Shown here in pieces: positions 30,400-43,751 of a stretch of DNA of 64,000 nt. Location of the stretch: NCBI GenBank assembly GCA_002723275.1, contig PBNZ01000043.1:212109-276108 (forward strand), given 5' to 3'. The number at the start of each line of letters is the position of its first letter. Position 1 is the first letter of the stretch. The notes under the pieces were generated by a model that did not search any database, had not been told where the DNA came from, and saw nothing but the letters and a program-made list of their open reading frames with translations. Position numbers and translations under genes: made by a program. Source of the stretch: Planctomycetaceae bacterium. Lineage in GTDB: Bacteria; Planctomycetota; Planctomycetia; Pirellulales; Pirellulaceae.

Positions 30400-31038
30400 A
30401 TGCGAATTGCAACTACGTTTTTAGTGATGCTCTGCTTAGTGACAACTGCCGCTGCAGAATCAGTAACGATCAAGAACGCAAGCTTTGAAGCGCCCGCACA
30501 GGATCCAGGCGGTTGGACTAACGATCTTCCCGATTGGGACGGTCCTCCAGCAGCTGGCGACGCGTTCATCGAATATATCGATGGTTTTGTCTCTGAAAGC
30601 GTCAATCACATCGGTATTCAGAACGGTCAAGAAGTGTCCCAAAACCTGGGCGTTTCCCTTCAAGCGAATTCGGTTTACACGCTAACCGTTGGTGTTGGAA
30701 ATCGTAACGACAGTTTCACGCCGACAGACGGCAGTCAAGCTTCGACCTTCGGTCTCTATGCTGGTGGTGACGCTGGTGATGGTGGAACGCTGTTGGCCGA
30801 ATCGACCGTCGACGCTGGCCCACTGGGCGCATCGACTTTCGCAGACTTTTCGCTCGTGTACGAGACAACCGACGCTCTTGAAGCAGGTGACTTGTTCGTC
30901 TCCCTGCGAACGACCGGCGGTGGTCGAGCTCACTACGACAACATTCGTCTGGAAGTCGTTCCGGAACCCACTTCCTTGACGTTGATTGGCATTGCAGGCC
31001 TCGGCCTGATGTCGCTCCGACGACGTCGCACGAAGTAG
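30400..31038 (+). CDS. PEP-CTERM sorting domain protein
   Basis: A 212-residue secreted protein. The signal peptide is residues 1-17 (TTFLVMLCLVTTAAAES). The body looks like a jelly-roll, carbohydrate-binding-like domain (VTIKNASFEAPAQDPGG at the start of the mature part, SVYTLTVGVGNRND, GDLFVSLRTTGGGRAHYDN). The C-terminus is a complete PEP-CTERM tag: VPEPTSLTLIGIAGLGLM followed by RRRR, which directs exosortase (EpsH-type) processing. No exosortase gene is in the window. SD AAGGA (30387-30391) supports the ATG. A structured RNA lies just upstream and a strong terminator downstream, so it is a single-gene unit. Confidence 0.92.
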   Translation: MRIATTFLVMLCLVTTAAAESVTIKNASFEAPAQDPGGWTNDLPDWDGPPAAGDAFIEYIDGFVSESVNHIGIQNGQEVSQNLGVSLQANSVYTLTVGVGNRNDSFTPTDGSQASTFGLYAGGDAGDGGTLLAESTVDAGPLGASTFADFSLVYETTDALEAGDLFVSLRTTGGGRAHYDNIRLEVVPEPTSLTLIGIAGLGLMSLRRRRTK

Positions 31039-31191: not shown

Positions 31192-34100
31192 ATGCGTCAA
31201 TTATGGTTAACGTTAATTGCGAGCTTGCTGGTCCTTGTAACCGGGTGTCGGCAAGATCCCGTACCGCAGGAATCATCTCCGGCTATTCCCGCCTCTCCCG
31301 AGAGGGCAACGTCCCCTGACTCAACTCAACTTGAAGAGACCTCGACATCGCGGCTTCATGAGTTAGCGAGCGATTCCAACGGAACGCCCAGCGACCCTCT
31401 TGCAGAGGGTTGGGAATTTGAAGAGTTCAATCAGCAGGCGAATTCGCGTTTGAAGCAACTGGGGAAACTGGTCACATCTCCAGAGTTCAAAGCATCACAT
31501 TTTGCCGAATTGTCAGCGACATCCTTCGCGGCAACGGAATTACAGCCGGAGGATCTGGAGAGAGCCTATCAGGGTCAAGTCTTTGAGGTCGAGCGACTGA
31601 GTCAGGATTTTCAGTTGAGCCGCGATTCGACATCAATTGCTGCAGCCTTCAAGCCACTCTGGGAACGATTTGGACAGCTCCAAGATCCGCACTTCAAGTT
31701 TAAGGTTTTCCGTGTCTCGGAAGACGGCGACGAATTCGTCACCAAACAATACGTTCAGTTTTCTGGCTTCAGTGAGGGCCATTCGGTTGAACAGAACTCA
31801 ACCTGGATCATTGGCTGGCAGCCCAACCGTCCGAAAGGTGCTCCGACGATCGCCTGGATTGAATTAGTCGACTTTGAACAGGTCACGTCGACTCAAGCGG
31901 GAGGTGGTCGGCTACTAGTCGATTGCACTCGCTCTGTCCTGCAGTCGGTCCCCGCCTACGAGTCGACACTCTTGCCGGGCATCGGTCATTGGCGAGAGCG
32001 TCTTGAAAAAGAATTCGCGATTCACAACTTCGGACACCATGGCCTCGCTTTGGGCGATGTGAACGGAGACGACTGGGATGACATCTACGTCTGCCAAACC
32101 GGCGGACTTCCAAATCTGCTTTTGATACGACAACCAGACGGAACGGTCGTCGACGGCGCGGCAGAAGCCGGTGTTGACTATCTCGACAACACGCGCAGCG
32201 CTCTCTTCTTGGATCTCGACAACGATGGGGACCAGGACCTGGTCTTATCTTTGACAAGTGGCCTGCTGCTCGCCGAAAACGACGGTGCTGGGAGATATCG
32301 ATTGCGAGCTCGTATTCCGAGTGTCCGCGAGGGCTTTTCCCTGGCCGCCGCCGACTACGACCAAGATGGCTGGACGGACCTCTTTGTTTGCGTCTACTAC
32401 GGGGCGGGTAATGATGTCTCAGAACTTCCCCTCCCCCTCCCCTACTTCGACGCCACCAACGGCGGTGCGAATCATTTAATTCGAAATCATGGTGATTGGA
32501 AATTCTCCGAAGTCACCGAGGCTGTGGGACTGGACACAGACAATCGACGATTCAGCTTCGCGGCGGCGTGGGAAGACGATGACAACGACGGTGATCTTGA
32601 TCTGTTAATCGTGAACGATTTTGGACCGAACCAACTTTTCCGTAACGACTCGGGACAATTCAAGGATGTTGCCAGCGATATTGGCCTTCGCGACGGGGCG
32701 TTTGGAATGTCCGCAACCTGGGGAGATTTTGACCACGATGGTCGCTTTGATATTTACGTCTCGAACATGTTTTCGGCAGCCGGAAACCGAGTGACCTTTA
32801 CCGAGAGGTTCAAGCCCGATTCAACCCAGGAAACTCGAGCCAAGTACCAATACCTTGCTCGTGGCAATTCTCTTTTTCGCAATCGGGGTTCAAATCATTA
32901 CGACGACGTTAGCGAAACGATGCGAGTCACGATGGGTCGCTGGAGCTGGGCTTCGCTCTTCGTGGACCTAAACAACGACAGCTGGGAAGATCTGTTGGTA
33001 ACCAATGGATTCATTACAGGTCGAGATACCGAAGATTTGTGAAGTGTTCTTTGGCGGCAGGTCGTGTCGCAATCTCCCGTATCATCCGATGAGTTCGACA
33101 TTGCTCGCCAGGAAGATTCGGACTATCGCCGGCGCCTGCGGGAATTAAATCAACGATTAAGGCACAACGGCACATTAAGCGGTCACGAGCGGAATTGCGC
33201 TTTCCTGAATCTCCAAGGAACCGACTTCGCCACCGTCTCAGCCGTCAGTGGATTTGACTTCGACGACGATGCTCGCGGCCTGGCTGTCGTCGATTGGGAC
33301 GGAGACGGCGACCTGGATTTATGGACCACCAGTCGGACAGGTCCTCGGCTTCGCTTTCTCCGTAACGAACTAACGGACAACCATCACTTCTTGCTTTTAC
33401 GTCTGGAAGGTGTGCGTTGTAATCGTGATGCGATCGGAGCCAAGGTCATCGTCGCGATTGCCGATCGTCCTAACGAAAAGCTGATGAAGAGTCTTCGGGC
33501 CGGCGAGGGGTTTCTTTCACAAGGCAGTAAATGGCTGCACTTTGGCCTGGGAGATTCGGACAACATCAAGAGTGTTACGGTGCTCTGGCCGGACGGATCT
33601 CGACAAAGCTTTTCCAATCTTGCTGCGGATGGTCGGTATCGAATCGTCCAAGATCAACCGGAAGCAATCCGAATCGATGCGGCCGGCGAGTTTCCAAGAA
33701 TCCAACAGCTGCCACAGACTCAAACCAAAGACATTCAGGCTGCCAGGATTCCGCTCCTCCACCGAATCCCAGTGCCTAACTTGCCGATACAGTCTCTGAA
33801 TTCCGACCCTCAGGGCGGAACGATTGTTCCGGGCTCGTCAGGTCCACAACTGATCAACTTAGTTGCGACCTGGTGCCCGGCGTGCCGCGAAGAAATGGCG
33901 ATCTGGTCGCAACATCACGAGGGGTTGAAAGCCACGGGCCTCGATATCCACTGCATCATCGTCGATGAGATGATCGACAGTCCCACCTCGCCTACCGCTG
34001 ACGACGCGACATTGGCAGCCTTCCCAACTCATCGAGCAACGGCGGAACTCTCACAACGTCTTCAAGACGTCCATCAGATCCCCTTCACCCCGCACGTTGC

Positions 34101-34791
34101 GATGCCGGTTCCGACGAGCTTTTTGGTCGACGCAACAGGACATCTCGCGGTAATTTATCGAGGTCCAGTCGCTGTCGATACGCTCCTCGAAGATATCGCC
34201 AAACTCGCGCTCAACGAAACCGAATGGCAACTGGAAACGAAAGTTCATCCGGGCCGTTGGAACCAGGTCCCAAGCGAACCGGATTTCCTCACCCTTGCTC
34301 GCGAGCTGGTTAATCGTGGTGCCTATTTGGACGCGGTGGAATACACAACTCGATTCGAAGATAAATTTGCTCGAAGCAATGAGTTTTCGAAACTGTTGAC
34401 TTGGTTGGCCGATTCGCTGATCCAGCAGAATCCTACGGTGGCCGTTGCAGAATATCGGCGAGCTCTGCGAATGAACCCTAACGACGTAACGGCGATGAAT
34501 AACTTCGCATGGCAACTTGCCACGGACCCGCGCACGGAAGTACGAGATGGCGATCTCGCCGTGCAATTAGCCGAAAAGGCAGCTCGCCTGACCAAACTCG
34601 AAGATTACGGCGTCCTCGATACGCTGGGCGCGGCCTACGCGAGTATCAAAAACTTCAAGCGAGCGACAGCAGCCGCCAAACGGGGCATCACCTTGGCTGA
34701 AGCCCAGGGAGCTGATCCCGCCTTGATCGGTAGAATGCAATCGCGTCTCAAACGGTACCGGGAAGCCAGCCAAAACAGCGATAACCGTTGA
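31192..34791 (+). CDS. FG-GAP/ASPIC-UnbV lipoprotein with thioredoxin-like and TPR parts; in-frame TGA (candidate selenoprotein)
   Basis: The frame is open from ATG 31192 to 34791 apart from one TGA at 33040-33042, giving 1199 residues with residue 617 encoded by TGA. In order: lipoprotein signal (lipobox LVTGC, Cys19); a linker; an FG-GAP/VCBS beta-propeller of the CRTAC1 type (calcium-like loops DVNGDDWDD, DLDNDGDQD, DYDQDGWTD, DDNDGDLD, DFDHDGRFD, DLNNDSWED); the TGA; one more loop DWDGDGDLD; an ASPIC/UnbV domain with VLWPDGSRQ; a TlpA-like thioredoxin fold with WCPAC (Cys895, Cys898); and C-terminal TPRs. Domains continue smoothly across the TGA. A SECIS-like hairpin follows it. If TGA were a stop, the product would be a 616-residue truncated propeller, and a GTG at 33064 could start a leaderless remainder. 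An error in the sequence is the other alternative. Confidence 0.8.
33051..33072 (+). promoter_or_regulatory. Candidate bacterial SECIS element
   Basis: Nine bases after TGA (33040-33042) the RNA can fold as UUG, bulged G, CGGCA, loop GGUCG, UGUCG, CAA (33051-33072). Pairs are 51-72, 52-71, 53-70, 55-69, 56-68, 57-67 (G-U), 58-66 and 59-65; base 54 is the bulge. A 5' bulge below a GGUC apical loop at this distance (G at +18 and +19) matches the known E. coli fdhF element closely, including the heptamer GCAGGUC. Confidence 0.7.
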
Positions 34792-36177: not shown

Positions 36178-36672
36178 TAGTCGAGCCGGTGCGATTTACT
36201 GAAGTCATAGAAAGAAGAGTCATGAAGCTGTTCAACATTGTAGCCAATTGAAAATCAACTGCAGACAACCGAACCGGATCTCTTTTGCAAATTTCTTTAC
36301 CGGCAGCCAGCCAACGAGTCGGGTCCTGACCGGATCCTTCGCAGTCCATCGATCCACCAAGGCCCGGCATCAAAGAAACGGGCATGCCCCGTTGAAAACG
36401 TTTGCCAACCTTCGCCGATGAAACTCATTGGGTGGCTGACAATGTTCGATTTCCAGCTTGCTTCTGCGACAGTAGGCTGCGGCGAGGATGAGGGCGGAAA
36501 CAGACAGCAATTCGTTTTTTGGTGATCTCCATCGAATAACTCGCAACTTGTGATTTCTTGTGATACCTTGACGGGATAAATTGACTGAGATCATTGCCTA
36601 TCAGCAATCACCGTAAAACTCACCTGTGGTCTGCAAAGATCTTTGAGCAACCTCACGGGAAGAGCAAAAGGC
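36178..36672. other. Intergenic region between divergent genes
   Basis: About 495 bases between the propeller gene and the lipid operon, which point away from each other. I see no convincing gene. The region must hold both promoters. A TTG at 36643, in phase with the next gene, would add ten residues. Confidence 0.45.
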
Positions 36673-37509
36673 ATGAAGATTCCCGGCAACGATTCACAAC
36701 CAACATCGAACCAGCATCTTGCTGCTTCCTCTGCCCAAGACGCAGCACCGTCGACATCGACTTTGCCCGTCCACGATGCGATTCCATTCTCGCGCCGCAT
36801 TCTTGAGACCTTAGCGATTACCGCTACCTTGACGCTGATTGTCTTGAACGTTGGCAGGCTGACCACGGCAGACATCCCCGTAAACTGGTTCACCTGGTTT
36901 TTGATTCCGGTGGGCATGGGCGCGGCTGATTTCCTGTCCGGCCTGATCCATTGGGGCGCAGATACTTGGGGACGTGAAAGCATGCCTTTGATTGGTCGAC
37001 GTTTGCTTCACCCGTTTCGCGTACACCACGTCAATCAAGCTGACTTTTTAGAACGTCGATTTATCGATACCAATGGCGACGTGGCCATTCTGGCACTGCC
37101 AGGCCTGGTCGGCATCTCTCTGATTCCGCTGGAAACGACTCTGCAATACAACCTGACGACGTTTTGCGTTTCCTTCTTAGCCGTCGGCTCGATGACGAAT
37201 CAGATTCACCAGTGGGCTCATATGCCGCAACCACCGTGGCTTGTAAAGCAACTTCAAAACTGTGGCATCTTGTTGGGAAGCAACGCGCATGCGCTCCACC
37301 ATTCGCCCCCCTACACCGAGAACTACTGCATTACGACAGGCTGGTGCAACCGACCGTTGGCCTCGATCGATTTCTTTCGTCGGCTCGAGCGAGGCATCAC
37401 GCGTGTGACCGGCTACCAGCCTCGCAGTGATGAGGAAGCTTATCAGGAAAAGTTCACAAATAACGTGAATGAGAAACCTTCGCTGACTTCAATTCATGGA
37501 GGAAGTTAA
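36673..37509 (+). CDS. CarF/PEDS1-type plasmanylethanolamine desaturase-like protein
   Basis: An integral membrane desaturase of the TMEM189/CarF family, whose members introduce the vinyl-ether bond of plasmalogens. Family motifs are in order: DFLSGLIHWGADTWG (about residues 94-108), HPFRVHHVNQADFLERRF, TNQIHQWAHM, and SNAHALHHSPPYTENYCITTGWCNRPL followed by FFRRLER. The histidines HW, HH, HxxxH and HxxHH supply the expected di-iron ligands. Four hydrophobic segments are visible. ATG 36673 gives 278 residues; a TTG at 36643 is possible. The next gene starts 3 bases after the stop, giving a lipid operon. Desaturase activity on ether lipids is inferred from the family. Confidence 0.85.
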   Translation: MKIPGNDSQPTSNQHLAASSAQDAAPSTSTLPVHDAIPFSRRILETLAITATLTLIVLNVGRLTTADIPVNWFTWFLIPVGMGAADFLSGLIHWGADTWGRESMPLIGRRLLHPFRVHHVNQADFLERRFIDTNGDVAILALPGLVGISLIPLETTLQYNLTTFCVSFLAVGSMTNQIHQWAHMPQPPWLVKQLQNCGILLGSNAHALHHSPPYTENYCITTGWCNRPLASIDFFRRLERGITRVTGYQPRSDEEAYQEKFTNNVNEKPSLTSIHGGS

Positions 37510-37512
37510 ACT

Positions 37513-38661
37513 TTGAACGACCGAGTACCCTCAGACGAAGAACAACAACCTTTTCTCGCGTTGGAAACTACCGAAGGAACTGAATTCGGTCGTGGCTGGC
37601 TAAGCGGTATTCTCTCGTCCGTCCTTGGAATCGCGAGCCTTGGAAGCGTGCTCTGCATCCGCTTTCCGAATATCTTCGCCTTTCCGGAACTGTTAAATCG
37701 CTACAGCGATTACTTGATTTACATCCGAGCAATCCTTCACGTCTCGTTAATTGCAGCCTTTATCTTGGGAACGATCTCGGTTTGTCTCCGGAAGAACAAG
37801 ATGATGGGTTTGATTGGTATCTCAGCAACTTTAATCGCAGCCCTCTTAGGAGGCTCCAAGGTAATCACAGGAGAATTCTCTGAGGATTCGTTTCTCGCAT
37901 TGGACTGGTTTGTCTTGAATCTGATTCTTTATACAGCTGTCTACATTCCCTTGGAGCGTTTATTTGCGAAACATCCTGACCAGCCCACGTTTCGCAAGGA
38001 ATGGCACGTCGATCTGACCTACTTTTTTCTCAACACACTCTTAATTCAGATCACAAGCTTATTGACGCTCCAACCCGCGATTGTCTTTTTCGACTGGGCG
38101 CGAATTTCCGCAATTGAACAAACGCTTTCGTCACTGCCCCTCGTGATTCAAGTGCCCTGCTGTTTGCTGGTTGCTGACTTCGCTCAATACTGGATTCATC
38201 GCACATTTCATGTGGTTCCATTCCTCTGGAAATTCCATGCGATTCATCACTCGGCCGAGGCAATGGACTGGCTCGCCGGAGCTCGACTACACCTTGTGGA
38301 TGCGTTAGTCACTCGCAGCCTCACTTATGCTCCACTCTATGTGCTTGGTTTTTCCCAGACAACGATCGTAATCTACGTGATCATTGTCGCCATCCAGGCA
38401 ACCTTCATACACGCCAACTTACGCTGGGAATTCCATTGGTGTCGTCATTTGATTGCAACCCCCTTCTTTCATCATTGGCATCACGCTGCCGAGCGAGAAG
38501 CGATCGACAAGAATTTTTCAGTCCACGCAACACTTTGGGATTGGCTCTTCGGTACCTATTACGTCCCTAAGCGGTGGCCACAGGAGTACGGATTGTGTGG
38601 CACGCGCGATGTCCCATCGAGCTGGCTGCGTCAATTCCTGTATCCGTTTCGGCGCAAGTAA
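37513..38661 (+). CDS. Fatty-acid hydroxylase/sterol desaturase family membrane protein
   Basis: A di-iron membrane oxygenase of 382 residues. The three histidine clusters are HRTFH (about residues 235-239), FHAIHHSAE, and FFHHWHHAAE, the order typical of the family that includes sterol C4/C5 oxidases and alkylglycerol monooxygenase. Two extra hydrophobic segments at the N-terminus make it longer than single-domain members. TTG 37513 is chosen because GGAGGA (37498-37503) lies 9 bases upstream and because it begins just after the CarF-like stop. Its pairing with a CarF-like desaturase suggests an ether-lipid or long-chain lipid substrate; the family alone does not decide this. Confidence 0.87.
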   Translation: MNDRVPSDEEQQPFLALETTEGTEFGRGWLSGILSSVLGIASLGSVLCIRFPNIFAFPELLNRYSDYLIYIRAILHVSLIAAFILGTISVCLRKNKMMGLIGISATLIAALLGGSKVITGEFSEDSFLALDWFVLNLILYTAVYIPLERLFAKHPDQPTFRKEWHVDLTYFFLNTLLIQITSLLTLQPAIVFFDWARISAIEQTLSSLPLVIQVPCCLLVADFAQYWIHRTFHVVPFLWKFHAIHHSAEAMDWLAGARLHLVDALVTRSLTYAPLYVLGFSQTTIVIYVIIVAIQATFIHANLRWEFHWCRHLIATPFFHHWHHAAEREAIDKNFSVHATLWDWLFGTYYVPKRWPQEYGLCGTRDVPSSWLRQFLYPFRRK

Positions 38662-38702
38662 GAAGAGTCACGTTAAGATCCACCCTGCACAAGCGAGACA
38701 AA

Positions 38703-39608
38703 ATGCGATCGTTCACCATTGTTGCGCGTGCTGAATCGGGCCAAGGAAAATCGCATCGCATCGCTCGAACGGTTTATGAACGCCTGAAAAACCATGGTGC
38801 AGCATGTCAACTTTTAATCACGTCACCTGAACAAACTCTTCGTGAGTTGGTCGAACGGAGTCTACATCAACATGCAGAGATACAACAGAAAGATTGGTGT
38901 CTCGTGATATGTGGCGGCGACGGCGCGATTCAAGAAGCGATCAACGCAGTCATGGCTCAACCTACCTCCCAATTGCTGCTGGGATTGGCACCAGCAGGAA
39001 CATGCAATGATTTCGCCCACGGATTGGCCCTCTCCCCTGCTCCCGAAGAGATTGTTAACGTCCTATTGAACGGTGTCCCTCATGCAATCGACCTGGGCCT
39101 GGCCGGTGAAAAACATTTTTGCACAATCGCCACAGTTGGCTTGGAATCCACCGTCAATCGATTTCTTCGCGATCACAAAACATACTCACCTCGACGGTGG
39201 CTGTTTGTTTTAACGGCGGCATGGCAATTAATGATCCTGAAAGCCGTGCAACTGCAAGTCACCATTGATGGGGAAGCTCAAGAAGCGAGCATTCTTAATC
39301 TGGTCGCTGCCAATACTCGTTCCTATGGCGGGCGCGTTCGCATCGCACCCTTGGCGAATCCGACCGATGGACGACTTGATCTCTTGATGATTCAATCTCG
39401 CTCCAGACTCAGCCGGATGTTCACGCTTCTTGACGCTCTCCGAGGGCGACACCTGAACCGACGTGAAGTCTTTTATCAGCCCGTCAAACGGGTCAAAATC
39501 GAGAGCCGTCAACCTTACGAAGTCTGGGCCGATGGCGAACCTCTGGGCACCACGCCAATCGAAATCTCAGTGGTTCCGGCCGCATTGCGCATCCTGAGGC
39601 CACCGTAA
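38703..39608 (+). CDS. Diacylglycerol/lipid kinase family protein
   Basis: A 301-residue DAGK-catalytic-domain protein (YegS/DgkB type) that phosphorylates a lipid hydroxyl with ATP. Motifs are VICGGDGAIQEAINAVM (about residues 66-82, usual form GGDGTxxEVxN), LGLAPAGTCNDFAHGL, and the C-terminal TDGRLDLLMIQ and YEVWADGEPLGTTP. ATG 38703 is chosen over upstream starts in the same frame because family likeness begins with FTIVARAESGQGK. The gap to the hydroxylase is 41 bases. Together with the two upstream genes it forms a lipid-modifying unit. Substrate (diacylglycerol, alkylglycerol or sphingoid base) unknown. Confidence 0.88.
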   Translation: MRSFTIVARAESGQGKSHRIARTVYERLKNHGAACQLLITSPEQTLRELVERSLHQHAEIQQKDWCLVICGGDGAIQEAINAVMAQPTSQLLLGLAPAGTCNDFAHGLALSPAPEEIVNVLLNGVPHAIDLGLAGEKHFCTIATVGLESTVNRFLRDHKTYSPRRWLFVLTAAWQLMILKAVQLQVTIDGEAQEASILNLVAANTRSYGGRVRIAPLANPTDGRLDLLMIQSRSRLSRMFTLLDALRGRHLNRREVFYQPVKRVKIESRQPYEVWADGEPLGTTPIEISVVPAALRILRPP

Positions 39609-41711: not shown

Positions 41712-43751
41712 ATGAGCACGCGTTTTGGAGTGCCGATCTTAGCAGTTCTTATAACTGTTGGTTCGGCGAACCTGGCAAGTGCCGCTTATTGTGGCGCCGC
41801 CAACTATAGCAATTGCGATTGTACGGCGGACGGATCGTCCGACGGCAACGCGAGTGCGGATGATGGCAGCACCACAGTGATGGTGACTCGCAAAAAGGTC
41901 GTCTGTGTACCCGAAAAGTACACCGCCTACCGCACCGTCTATGACACTGTCTATGAAGACAAGACGATCAACTGCACCAGCTATGTTCGCGAGAATCGCG
42001 TACGCACCGTGAATTACACGGTTCGCAAGCCGGTGTGGGAAACACGCCAGCGTGAGATCAACTACACGGTGATGAAGCCGGTCTGGGAAACCAAGACTCG
42101 CACCATCAACTACACGGTCAACCGACCAGTGTGGGAAACTCGCCAACGTGAGATCAAGTACACGGTGATGAAACCCGTCTGGGAAACCAAGACTCGCACG
42201 ATTAATTACACAGTTAATCGCAAAGTCTGGGAAACACGTCAGCGTGAGATCAACTACACGGTGATGAAGCCGGTCTGGGAAACCAAGACTCGCACCATCA
42301 ACTACACGGTCAACCGACCGGTATGGGAAACTCGCCAACGCGAGATCAAGTACACCGTGATGAAGCCAGTCTGGGAAACCAAGACTCGCACCATCAACTA
42401 CACGGTCAACCGACCGGTGTGGGAAACTCGCCAACGCGAGATCAACTACACAGTGATGAAACCGGTCTGGGAAACTCGCACTAAGGAAATCCCCTACACG
42501 GTTCGTCGACCGGTATGGGAAACACGAGAAAAGACGATTAACTATACGGTGATGAAGCCGGTCTGGGAAACCAAGACTCGCACCATCAATTACACAGTCA
42601 TGCGTCCAGTCTGGGAAACCAAGACTCGCAACGTCACGACGTACGTTCGCAAGGCAGTTCCCTATACGAAGACGATCACCGTCAAGGGCGGACACTGGGA
42701 AACTCGCAAGACAGTCATTCCCGGTCGCACTTACACGCGAACCGTCCAGATGCCTGGCAAGTGGACTTATGATCCCTGCACATGCCGATGCGTTTACTGC
42801 CCCGGCGAATGCAAGACGATCTGCTGCAAACGACCTGATCGGGTCTGCTGCAAGAAAGTCTGGGTTCCCACCTGTGAGGAAAAGACGATCAATTGCGTAA
42901 AGTACGTGTGCGAGCCCTGCACCAAGCAGGTCGAATACAAGTGCTGCAAGATGGTCCCCGAATGCAAGACCAAGACCTGCACCTACAAGGTTTGCAAGAT
43001 GGTTCCCGAATGCCGAACCAAGACGTGCACCTATAAGGTTTGCAAGTACGTCTGCGAGCAAAAAGTTCGCACGTGCACTTACAAGGTTTGCAAGATGGTT
43101 CCCGAATGCAAGACCAAGGTTTGCACCTACAAGGTCTGCAAGATGGTTCCCGAATGCAAGACCAAGACGTGTACCTACAAGGTTTGCAAGATGGTTCCCG
43201 AATGCAAGACTAAGGTTTGCACCTACAAAGTCTGCAAGATGGTCCCCGAATGCAAGACCAAGACCTGCACCTACAAGGTTTGCAAGATGGTTCCCGAATG
43301 CAAGACCAAGGTTTGCACCTACAAGGTCTGCAAGATCGTTCCCGAATGCAAAACCAAGACGTGCACCTACAAGGTTTGCAAGATGGTTCCCGAATGCAAG
43401 ACCAAGGTTTGCACCTACAAGGTCTGCAAAATGGTTCCCGAATGCAAAACCAAAACGTGCACCTACAAGGTTTGCAAGATGGTTCCCGAATGCCGAACGA
43501 AGACCTGCACCTACAAGGTTTGCAAGATGGTCTGCGAACAACGCACGAAGGAAATCTGCTACACGGTGTGCAAGCCAGTTTGCACAACGAAGACGATTAA
43601 AGTAGCCAAACGAGTTTGCCGCAAAGAACCCGTTGAACGCTGCCGCATGGTACGCAAGGTGATTTGCGAGCAAGTCCCGGTTAAGGTCTGCTGCCCACAG
43701 CCCAGTTGCTGTGAACCCACTTGTGGCGCAGAGCCGAGCTGCGGAGCTTAG
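41712..43751 (+). CDS. YTV-repeat, Cys-rich cell-surface protein
   Basis: A 679-residue exported protein. The signal peptide is residues 1-25 (core VPILAVLITVGSANLASA). A first array (about residues 101-307) has 13 units of 16 residues of the form YTVMKPVWETKTRTIN. A middle part has CxC-rich segments and one RTYTRTVQMPGKW. A second array (about residues 423-614) has 12 units of the form CTYKVCKMVPECKTKT. The tail CCPQPSCCEPTCGAEPSCG is Cys-rich. Such YTV proteins were described as planctomycete wall proteins in Rhodopirellula baltica; a disulfide-linked wall role is the family's likely one. Composition is extremely biased (Lys, Thr, Val, Cys), unlike the flanking genes. Confidence 0.9.
   Translation: MSTRFGVPILAVLITVGSANLASAAYCGAANYSNCDCTADGSSDGNASADDGSTTVMVTRKKVVCVPEKYTAYRTVYDTVYEDKTINCTSYVRENRVRTVNYTVRKPVWETRQREINYTVMKPVWETKTRTINYTVNRPVWETRQREIKYTVMKPVWETKTRTINYTVNRKVWETRQREINYTVMKPVWETKTRTINYTVNRPVWETRQREIKYTVMKPVWETKTRTINYTVNRPVWETRQREINYTVMKPVWETRTKEIPYTVRRPVWETREKTINYTVMKPVWETKTRTINYTVMRPVWETKTRNVTTYVRKAVPYTKTITVKGGHWETRKTVIPGRTYTRTVQMPGKWTYDPCTCRCVYCPGECKTICCKRPDRVCCKKVWVPTCEEKTINCVKYVCEPCTKQVEYKCCKMVPECKTKTCTYKVCKMVPECRTKTCTYKVCKYVCEQKVRTCTYKVCKMVPECKTKVCTYKVCKMVPECKTKTCTYKVCKMVPECKTKVCTYKVCKMVPECKTKTCTYKVCKMVPECKTKVCTYKVCKIVPECKTKTCTYKVCKMVPECKTKVCTYKVCKMVPECKTKTCTYKVCKMVPECRTKTCTYKVCKMVCEQRTKEICYTVCKPVCTTKTIKVAKRVCRKEPVERCRMVRKVICEQVPVKVCCPQPSCCEPTCGAEPSCGA
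42012..42633 (+). repeat. 48-bp tandem array 1 (13 units, YTV-type)
   Basis: Thirteen 48-bp units lie head to tail inside the coding frame. Units alternate between two subtypes (VMKPVWETKTRT and VNRPVWETRQRE), so the real repeating unit is mostly a 96-bp dimer. Confidence 0.9.
42978..43553 (+). repeat. 48-bp tandem array 2 (12 units, CTYKVCK-type)
   Basis: Twelve 48-bp units, with subtypes ending KTKT and KTKV alternating through the central units. Unit starts fall exactly 48 bases apart from 42978 to 43506. The period is the same as in array 1. Confidence 0.92.

Follow-up and report, generated by a model that had tools for sequence, protein, structure and literature searches.

The reading frame at 31192-34791 and its product

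The window, the whole stretch of 64,000 nucleotides of Planctomycetaceae DNA that was analysed, holds a long reading frame whose terminal stop lies at 34789-34791 and whose single internal stop is the TGA of codon 617, directly followed by the residues SVLWRQVV (Table 1). An earlier interpretation made from the letters alone (the sequence-only reading) had claimed that this frame is open save for one TGA, that both sides of it belong to one propeller/ASPIC-UnbV protein and that the second part has no signal peptide of its own. Translation confirmed the frame, and Pfam placed FG-GAP repeats before the TGA and UnbV_ASPIC after it, both over the cut-offs (111.5 and 69.5 bits). An ORF downstream of the TGA would begin at GTG 33064 and no signal peptide was seen in it by eye; the upstream part has a lipobox-like motif at its beginning, and at the column of its cysteine 24 of the 39 clade A rows have Cys (clades are described below).

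The protein was modelled with the TGA as Cys (mean pLDDT 89.3). Its assignment to the CRTAC1/ASPIC-UnbV proteins comes from the Pfam domains together with the predicted CRTAC1 fold, for which murine CRTAC1 (9etn_A) matched at Z 40.0 and the next entries at Z 31. Further fold matches of the models were LGI1 (Z 31) and Aldos-2-ulose dehydratase 4a7k (Z 27). Concerning the thioredoxin-like domain, the CPAC motif and the fold matches of the model to TlpA (4txv/1jfu) and ResA point to it. The Redoxin/AhpC-TSA matches of the window gene after the TGA are weak and below the Pfam cut-offs, whereas two of three scanned clade A mates score above the Pfam cut-off, and the TlpA equivalog cut-off of NCBIfam was not reached by the window protein (29.9 of 230 bits, E 4.3e-7).

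Just upstream, a gene for an HpiC1-like protein is read in the same direction. Other clade A genes frequently have similar PEP-CTERM-type neighbours, and hence secreted surface proteins are a candidate substrate.

Table 1. Features of the locus, in window coordinates
Feature	Position	Strand	Basis
HpiC1-like protein ending in a PEP-CTERM-type tail, upstream neighbour	30400..31038	+	same direction as the window gene
Whole gene, 1199-aa FG-GAP/ASPIC-UnbV lipoprotein of clade A, predicted to contain Sec	31192..34791	+	translation; relatives with the same TGA; structure model
Signal peptide and lipobox-like LVTGC, Cys19	31192..31248	+	read by eye; alignment column
UGA codon 617, putative selenocysteine	33040..33042	+	translation, alignment, synonymous-codon fixation
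bSECIS-like hairpin, 6 bp (33054-33059 with 33065-33070), loop GGUCG 33060-33064	33054..33070	+	fold, clade A helix pairing, codon fixation
Cys669, possible partner of Sec	33196..33198	+	conserved in 38/42 clade A rows
UnbV_ASPIC domain, residues 747-816	33430..33639	+	Pfam, E 2.3e-19
TlpA/ResA-like thioredoxin domain, borders approximate	33742..34206	+	sub-cut-off Pfam, NCBIfam, fold matches
CPAC motif, residues 895-898	33874-33885	+	within the thioredoxin-like domain
Helical TPR-like C-terminal region, residues 1033-1194	34288..34773	+	model secondary structure; TPR-type matches, also in clade mates

Relatives of the gene and the selenocysteine machinery

Homologs were aligned at residue 617, a check that the sequence-only reading had proposed. 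The seed profile came from 56 sequences like those of clades A and C, selected by a TGA-holding motif, with the site column masked as X. The search scored the best five candidates per genome and, among the matches listed, mainly site-spanning rows were taken; the sample comprised 30 loci, 98 regions and 27 stretches of the own genome. In the 141 aligned rows the UGA column holds TGA in 120 (two of which are the window gene), Cys in five, another residue or a gap in 16 and Trp in none. The top 44 rows listed, the window gene plus 43 further rows with identities of 38-54%, carry exactly one stop each, and it is a TGA. Since the relatives share the same TGA column, a chance TGA is excluded. The five Cys relatives, two of them paralogs in this genome, continue past the site for about 200 residues; as they diverge in the residues behind the site, they do not serve as a clean codon control.

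After removal of L090, a copy of the window locus L028, at least 119 distinct TGA genes were counted, 15 of them in this genome. In the tree, from which L188 (a copy of L045) was also dropped, they fall into three clades (A, B and C), with the window gene in clade A. Regarding the spread of the family, 43 of the 392 genomes from the phylum contain a TGA-hairpin pattern and none its reversed control; in a few of the 43 the match is probably due to chance. A looser two-clade pattern matched in 126 of 241 family genomes; its single matches were not used, because the reversed control also matches in many genomes. Counts of this looser pattern against its control were 21 versus 0 in G004, 18 versus 0 in G063 and 12 versus 2 in this genome. 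The GTDB scan brought up a single relative, in a Verrucomicrobiales MAG.

The sel genes, which the sequence-only reading had wanted to be looked for, are all in the genome: SelA (578 bits), SelB (386 bits), SelD (356 bits, itself with one in-frame TGA) and tRNA-Sec (71.3 bits, anticodon TCA). Considering the top-scored loci per genome, SelB is over the cut-off in 35 of 39 TGA genomes, and TGA forms occur in 35 of 63 genomes with SelB versus 4 of 56 others (Fisher p 6e-9). The four TGA genomes without SelB over the cut-off are G034, which has SelA and tRNA-Sec, G063 and G002, which have tRNA-Sec, and G101 (91% complete), where none of SelA, SelB and tRNA-Sec is over the cut-off.

The region after the UGA and the cysteine partners

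The bSECIS rule, as given in the available part of PMC13188914, comprises a loop of 3-9 nt, an upper stem of 4-16 bp, a G in the first two loop positions, a spacing of 16-37 nt from the UGA and an MFE of at most -7.5. The window hairpin falls within it, with a 6-bp stem and the loop GGUCG at 17 nt from the UGA (-8.7 kcal/mol). The sequence-only reading had described a hairpin with a 5' bulged base and a GGUC loop; hairpin and loop hold, and the bulged base is absent from the predicted stem. The fold does not stand out from shuffled sequence in stability (z +0.62, with 144 of 200 shuffles equalling or surpassing it) and an Rfam search of 401 bases found nothing, so the window hairpin alone was rejected as proof of a SECIS.

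Each of the three clades has its own hairpin just 3' of the UGA. The clade A helix is paired in 307 of 312 cells, and its pair 17/27 in all 52 genes. Where residue +9 is Ala (three genes), the Arg-codon wobble base of this pair is C, and where it is Thr (one gene), the base is T; no other clade A gene has these bases there. One helix pair of clade C is mismatched in 6 of 13 genes. The bSECIS rule, with the stem-length test dropped, is satisfied by 110 of the 119 genes (clade A 48/52, B 53/54, C 9/13). It was nevertheless rejected as proof, since synonymous shuffles pass too often (A 740/2040, B 933/2160, C 326/520; 36-63%), and for clade C, which it does not separate from its shuffles, it is uninformative. 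Regarding folding energy, only 13 of the 118 real genes do better than every one of their 40 shuffles.

The codon-fixation test is stronger than this permissive rule. Clade A (52 genes) uses GTG for V+8 in 42/42 and GTC for V+7 in 39/52; among its 85 conserved fourfold columns, whose median top-codon share is 0.375, these two rank 1 and 2. In clade B (50 genes), V+8 is GTG in 46/47, A+6 is GCT in 47/50 and V+7 is GTC in 46/50 (ranks 1-3 of 57). Thus, in both large clades no fourfold synonymous codon elsewhere in the gene is as fixed as these hairpin codons, and this pattern indicates that the latter are kept by selection on synonymous positions.

The cysteines around the putative Sec follow a pattern of their own. 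Sec-x-Cys is present in 54 of 54 clade B genes and 10 of 13 in clade C, whereas clade A has no Cys at +2 and carries a C-terminal thioredoxin-like CxxC domain, in which C895 and C898 of CPAC are kept in 41 of 41 rows. Either the +2 Cys or the downstream CxxC, but not both, is found in 114 of 118 genes (L086, with 138 residues after the site, was left out of this table of 119); the exceptions include L115, with neither, and L107, with both. Other fairly conserved clade A cysteines are 301 (36/41 rows), 400 (32/41) and 245 (25/41). The sequence-only reading had considered a redox function plausible because CPAC lies in the same chain; the idea stays plausible and is sharpened by this alternation. 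From these motifs we infer that the family could be a secreted selenol oxidoreductase whose resolving partner, at first a local Cys, was replaced by a fused thioredoxin domain, an exchange that seems to have happened at least twice, in the whole of clade A and independently in the clade C member L081.

Probable selenocysteine at residue 617 and comparison with known systems

The machinery, the conserved UGA column, the clade hairpins and the fixed codons together make the insertion of Sec at residue 617, as the sequence-only reading had claimed, very likely. The gene product would be one exported lipoprotein: by analogy with established bacterial Sec biology, SelB with Sec-tRNA would bind the hairpin and Sec would be inserted as the ribosome crosses the UGA. 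There are other ways to read the TGA. A Cys or Trp codon could have mutated to TGA recently, or been miscalled as TGA, and the source assembly consists of 47 contigs and has 3.56% contamination; nevertheless, a pseudogene or sequencing error is highly improbable when the same TGA stands in that many distinct genes across many genomes, 15 of them here, with both flanks conserved and the synonymous codons after it fixed. TGA does function as a stop in the window, since it ends six of the 28 other long ORFs (seven of 29 with the ORF in question), and a GTG-started ORF exists at 33064. An ordinary stop would leave two proteins, or a short propeller protein and an untranslated tail, but the UnbV_ASPIC and thioredoxin-like domains continue the frame, no export signal is seen by eye in the second half, the Cys relatives run through the site and the hairpin codons are under selection, which makes this reading very doubtful. 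Decoding as Trp, or readthrough without selenium, would likewise yield the full-length chain and is hardly credible against a column with no Trp and five Cys, a full Sec machinery and the use of TGA as a stop by those six other ORFs; Trp reassignment was rejected on the absence of Trp in the 141 rows.

Supposing that Sec is inserted, its role has to be weighed as well. The UGA might mainly be a selenium switch, giving the full-length protein with selenium and a shorter lipoprotein with its own role without it. Residues 1-616 alone still match FG-GAP_3 in four stretches; however, the switch leaves the alternation of +2 Cys and CxxC unexplained and is improbable. A metal or metalloid ligand, or a structural residue, is a less remote alternative, albeit an unlikely one. 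FG-GAP propellers bind metal ions. Several known selenoproteins are also thought to bind metals, according to the available part of PMC13188914. Against a ligand role, the alternation in 114 of 118 genes suits thiol exchange better. Judging from the motifs, there is about an even chance that the Sec, in the CRTAC1-like propeller/ASPIC region and outside the cytoplasm, would be a catalytic redox residue. The Cys two residues after it would resolve it in clades B and C; in clade A this would be done by the fused TlpA/ResA-like CxxC domain, possibly together with Cys669. The fuller picture is tentative: an exported beta-propeller selenoenzyme family with either a local Sec-x-Cys or a thioredoxin domain fused in cis, in which clade A may be self-reducing at the cell surface and act on or together with exported partners of the PEP-CTERM type.

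The window gene apparently belongs to a large, uncatalogued selenoprotein family. Because standard ORF calling splits such genes in two, an entire selenoprotein family can escape notice. The sequence-only reading knew of no established selenoprotein of this kind, in agreement with the 2026 catalogue of 119 prokaryotic selenoprotein families, where Table 1 of the available part of PMC13188914 has no FG-GAP, VCBS, CRTAC1 or ASPIC/UnbV family. No description of an FG-GAP/ASPIC-UnbV selenoprotein family was found in the open-access literature, with subscription papers, preprints and supplements outside the scope; this covers parts of PMC4807772 (without Table S9, which holds selenoprotein candidates in two planctomycetes), PMC12013277, PMC5029168 and PMC9312934. 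With 15 members here and 21 matches to the looser pattern in a second genome of the genus, where the reversed control gave 0, this single family would rival many complete bacterial selenoproteomes; the record sizes quoted in the available part of PMC13188914 are 57 and 63. The family would put Sec into a cell-surface beta-propeller protein and offers a natural series for studying Sec resolution (Sec-x-Cys, Sec with a fused CxxC, and the Cys form).

As regards known systems, the window family shares with the bacterial selenoproteins described in the available part of PMC13188914 an in-frame UGA in a conserved protein, a bSECIS-like hairpin 16-37 nt downstream, SelA/SelB/SelD/tRNA-Sec, Cys-containing relatives and redox-type motifs. 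The modelled protein has the FG-GAP propeller and ASPIC fold in common with murine CRTAC1 (rmsd 2.3; 456 residues, 23% identity, model range 231-822), and beyond it has the UGA at 617, an N-terminal domain, the thioredoxin-like domain and a helical C-terminus. Its CPAC domain resembles the TlpA/ResA/DsbE thiol-disulfide oxidoreductases, with TlpA and ResA among its fold matches; unlike them, it is fused within a 1199-aa protein, and its CxxC is made of Cys, with the Sec about 280 residues away. The Sec-x-Cys of clades B and C is also found in the UGC/UxC motif selenoproteins of the same catalogue, in its available part (UGC-containing TlpA, DUF1573 and SO_0444), which are annotated as different families. 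Finally, unlike in the catalogued families, the Sec of the window family would be located in the propeller/ASPIC part rather than the thioredoxin domain.

The reading frame and its relatives

Translation bore out the frame described in the sequence-only reading, which is open from 31192 to 34791 except for a single internal stop, the TGA at 33040-33042 (codon 617 of 1199) proposed to encode selenocysteine (Sec). The view that one propeller/ASPIC-UnbV protein runs across this codon also held: Pfam FG-GAP repeats precede it, as does a start that by eye resembles a lipobox (LVTGC), and UnbV_ASPIC follows it (E 2.3e-19). With the TGA read as Cys, AlphaFold gave a well-predicted chain (mean pLDDT 89.3, pTM 0.87). 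Its central model residues 231-822, on both sides of the TGA, match the murine CRTAC1 fold with a Z of 40.0 and an rmsd of 2.3 across 456 residues. The CPAC thioredoxin-like motif reported earlier in the same chain lies at residues 895-898; Redoxin/AhpC-TSA matches after the TGA are weak, below the Pfam cut-offs, and TlpA and ResA are fold matches of the C-terminal domain. The C-terminal end is helical and TPR-like.

The protein search found matches in all 119 genomes searched from the same taxonomic family, and each of the first 44 rows listed had exactly one stop, a TGA. Thirty loci, 98 further regions and 27 stretches of the window's own genome were fetched and aligned to a profile built with the site column masked. 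In line with the proposal of Sec at residue 617, UGA occupies this column in 120 of 141 rows, a set in which the window gene and one other locus each appear twice; the remaining rows have Gly (6), Cys (5), Ala (2), Ser (2), a gap (2), Asp (1), Lys (1), Leu (1) or Arg (1). With the duplicate row of the window gene discarded, 119 distinct TGA genes remain, 15 of them in the own genome, where PF07593 has 37 places (one below the cut-off). Two own-genome paralogs (L079 and L083) carry Cys at the Sec column beside these 15 Sec forms.

The TGA genes form three clades, and a FastTree tree of 139 rows recovered A and C clean (support 0.90 and 1.0) and B clean save a single non-Sec sequence (0.999). 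A separate clade (1.0) unites the Cys forms and groups with Gly and gap relatives beside clade A, and all non-TGA rows but one Ala row fall outside the TGA clades.

Clades of TGA genes, their hairpins, and coordinates of other features
Feature	Genes	Position	Motif at the site	Hairpin	Remark
Clade A	52	loop 17 nt after UGA	DLUSFFWRQVVSQSP	GCGrCA-GGUCG-UGUCGC	includes the window gene
Clade B	54	loop 20 nt after UGA	PDGUxCLWRAVVSQP	GGCUGU-CGUGUC-ACAGCC	
Clade C	13	loop 17 nt after UGA	mostly DLUSCLWRxVVR	GCGCNC-GGUC-GUGCGC	one pair mismatched in 6/13
Laminin_G_3 neighbour		L071:7013-8296			
Laminin_G_3 neighbour		L072:6497-7738			
Laminin_G_3 neighbour		L069:752-1567			
Gene with PEP-CTERM-type tail		window 30400-31038			tail at 30958
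Lipid genes		window 36643-39605			
YTV-repeat protein		window 41712-43748			PF07639
SelD gene (L204)		own genome, contig C44:1006-1932			

Regarding the neighbourhood, PEP-CTERM-type tails, scored with our own motif, occur near 21/52 clade A, 1/13 clade C and 0/54 clade B genes, counts taken over loci of unequal mean length (7.2, 5.8 and 4.3 kb, respectively) and different genomes, with shared loci such as L071 counted repeatedly. Within the own genome, ten clade A loci (105.8 kb) have 11 tails, 14 further ASPIC loci (136.0 kb) have 5, and 24 loci of other kinds (100.1 kb) have none. The sole tail in the window belongs to the gene upstream of the proposed Sec gene. Moreover, three of the ten neighbour proteins scanned, from three clade A loci, present Laminin_G_3 domains. 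Elsewhere in the window, consecutive lipid desaturase, fatty acid hydroxylase and diacylglycerol kinase-like genes are likely a lipid-modification cluster, and one protein carries 13 YTV repeats, a repeat type linked to planctomycetes. Together with the gene content, these repeats suggest that the window derives from Planctomycetota.

Hairpin pairing and synonymous codons

Each clade's hairpin was the best among 135 six-base-pair registers tried, with 307/312 cells paired in A, 308/312 in B (52 distinct sequences) and 69/78 in C. Since this region also encodes conserved protein, synonymous choice was tested at conserved fourfold-degenerate columns over whole genes (52 of clade A, 50 of clade B). 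Hairpin columns take the top two ranks among 85 in clade A (GTG 42/42, GTC 39/52; median top-codon share 0.375) and the top three among 57 in clade B (GTG 46/47, GCT 47/50, GTC 46/50; median 0.419); conserved Pro columns with a third base immediately beyond the hairpin come 33rd of 85 and 54th of 57. Furthermore, in 52/52 clade A genes, the third base of the Arg codon forms a pair with position 1 of codon +9 after the site (A-T 27, G-T 19, C-G 3, G-C 2, T-A 1). This wobble base is C where codon +9 encodes Ala (three genes) and T where it encodes Thr (one gene), neither base appearing in any other clade A gene, and it is G in both genes with Pro. Judged from the codons, such a pattern is one of selection on the RNA, as would be expected of a bacterial SECIS (bSECIS).

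The general bSECIS rule (section 5 of the review PMC13188914) describes 110/119 genes, but also 36%, 43% and 63% of synonymous shuffles in A, B and C, so that it adds nothing over shuffles in clade C, where the SECIS rests on 13 sequences. Mean energies of real versus shuffled sequences were -9.5 and -5.8 kcal/mol in A, -10.6 and -7.8 in B, and -9.9 and -7.7 in C; only 13/118 genes had a lower energy than all 40 of their own shuffles.

Possible cysteine partners of the proposed Sec residue

Candidate partners were tabulated for those 118 TGA genes in which 150 residues or more follow the site, which excludes L086. Cys at +2 with no later CxxC was found in 64 genes of clades B and C, and a later CxxC with no +2 Cys in 49 clade A genes and one clade C gene (L081), an either-or rule obeyed in 114/118. 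The exceptions are L107 (both), L115 (neither), L058, which is cut by a contig end, and L076, in which one base of the second Cys codon is unreadable. Besides the Sec column, the most conserved clade A cysteines are 895 and 898 (41/41 rows) and 669 (38/42), followed by 301 (36/41), 400 (32/41) and 245 (25/41). In the B/C alignment, apart from the Sec column, only the +2 (40/41) and an N-terminal lipobox-like position (31/40) have Cys in at least half of the rows. In L081, on contig C21 of the own genome, the C-terminal part includes a thioredoxin-like stretch (ATWCEAC) that seems to have been fused independently.

These motifs suggest that Sec could be redox-active and that its resolving thiol may have shifted twice from the +2 Cys to a fused thioredoxin domain. 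A metal-binding role for Sec is possible but less likely.

Sec machinery, distribution and known selenoproteins

If codon 617 is Sec, as the sequence-only reading held, the genome should encode selA, selB, selD and tRNA-Sec, and all four were found. The tRNA-Sec model also matches elsewhere (11 matches, three above the cut-off), and the true one, on contig C29 (71.3 bits), was settled by the ARAGORN call of tRNA-SeC with anticodon tca. The protein genes are SelB (386 bits), SelA adjoining it (578 bits) and SelD (356 bits). The SelD frame contains one in-frame TGA; SelD is thus probably a selenoprotein itself, and the window gene is probably not the only place in the genome where UGA is read as Sec.

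Among the 119 family genomes, TGA forms occur in 35/63 with SelB above the cut-off versus 4/56 without it (Fisher p 6e-9), counts that are lower bounds because only top-scored loci per genome were examined. Regarding those four, G034 has SelA and tRNA-Sec, and G063 has tRNA-Sec. G002 (TGA gene L168) has tRNA-Sec with no SelA or SelB above the cut-off, and G101 (L175), with none of the three above it, remains an unexplained exception; an assembly gap or recent loss could account for both. Across the phylum, the clade A/C pattern appears in 43/392 genomes, in 20 families (reversed control 0), although a few of these hits look like chance matches. One relative, L058 (JALRGB010000155.1), belongs to clade A and comes from a Verrucomicrobiales MAG, by either transfer or misbinning. 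It shares 45% identity with the window protein, a closeness that just one of the 40 other relatives in alignment A1 surpasses.

With respect to known systems, Table 1 of PMC13188914 (2026) contains 119 prokaryotic selenoprotein families, with FG-GAP, CRTAC1 and ASPIC/UnbV absent from that table, and no NCBIfam model (June 2026) scored above its cut-off for the four family members tested. Selenoproteins of two strains are reported in a planctomycete genome paper of 2016 (PMC4807772); its section 17 does not mention an FG-GAP/ASPIC-UnbV family and its main text does not mention CRTAC or UnbV. Bacterial selenoproteins are a known kind, and the FG-GAP/ASPIC-UnbV Sec family appears to be new.
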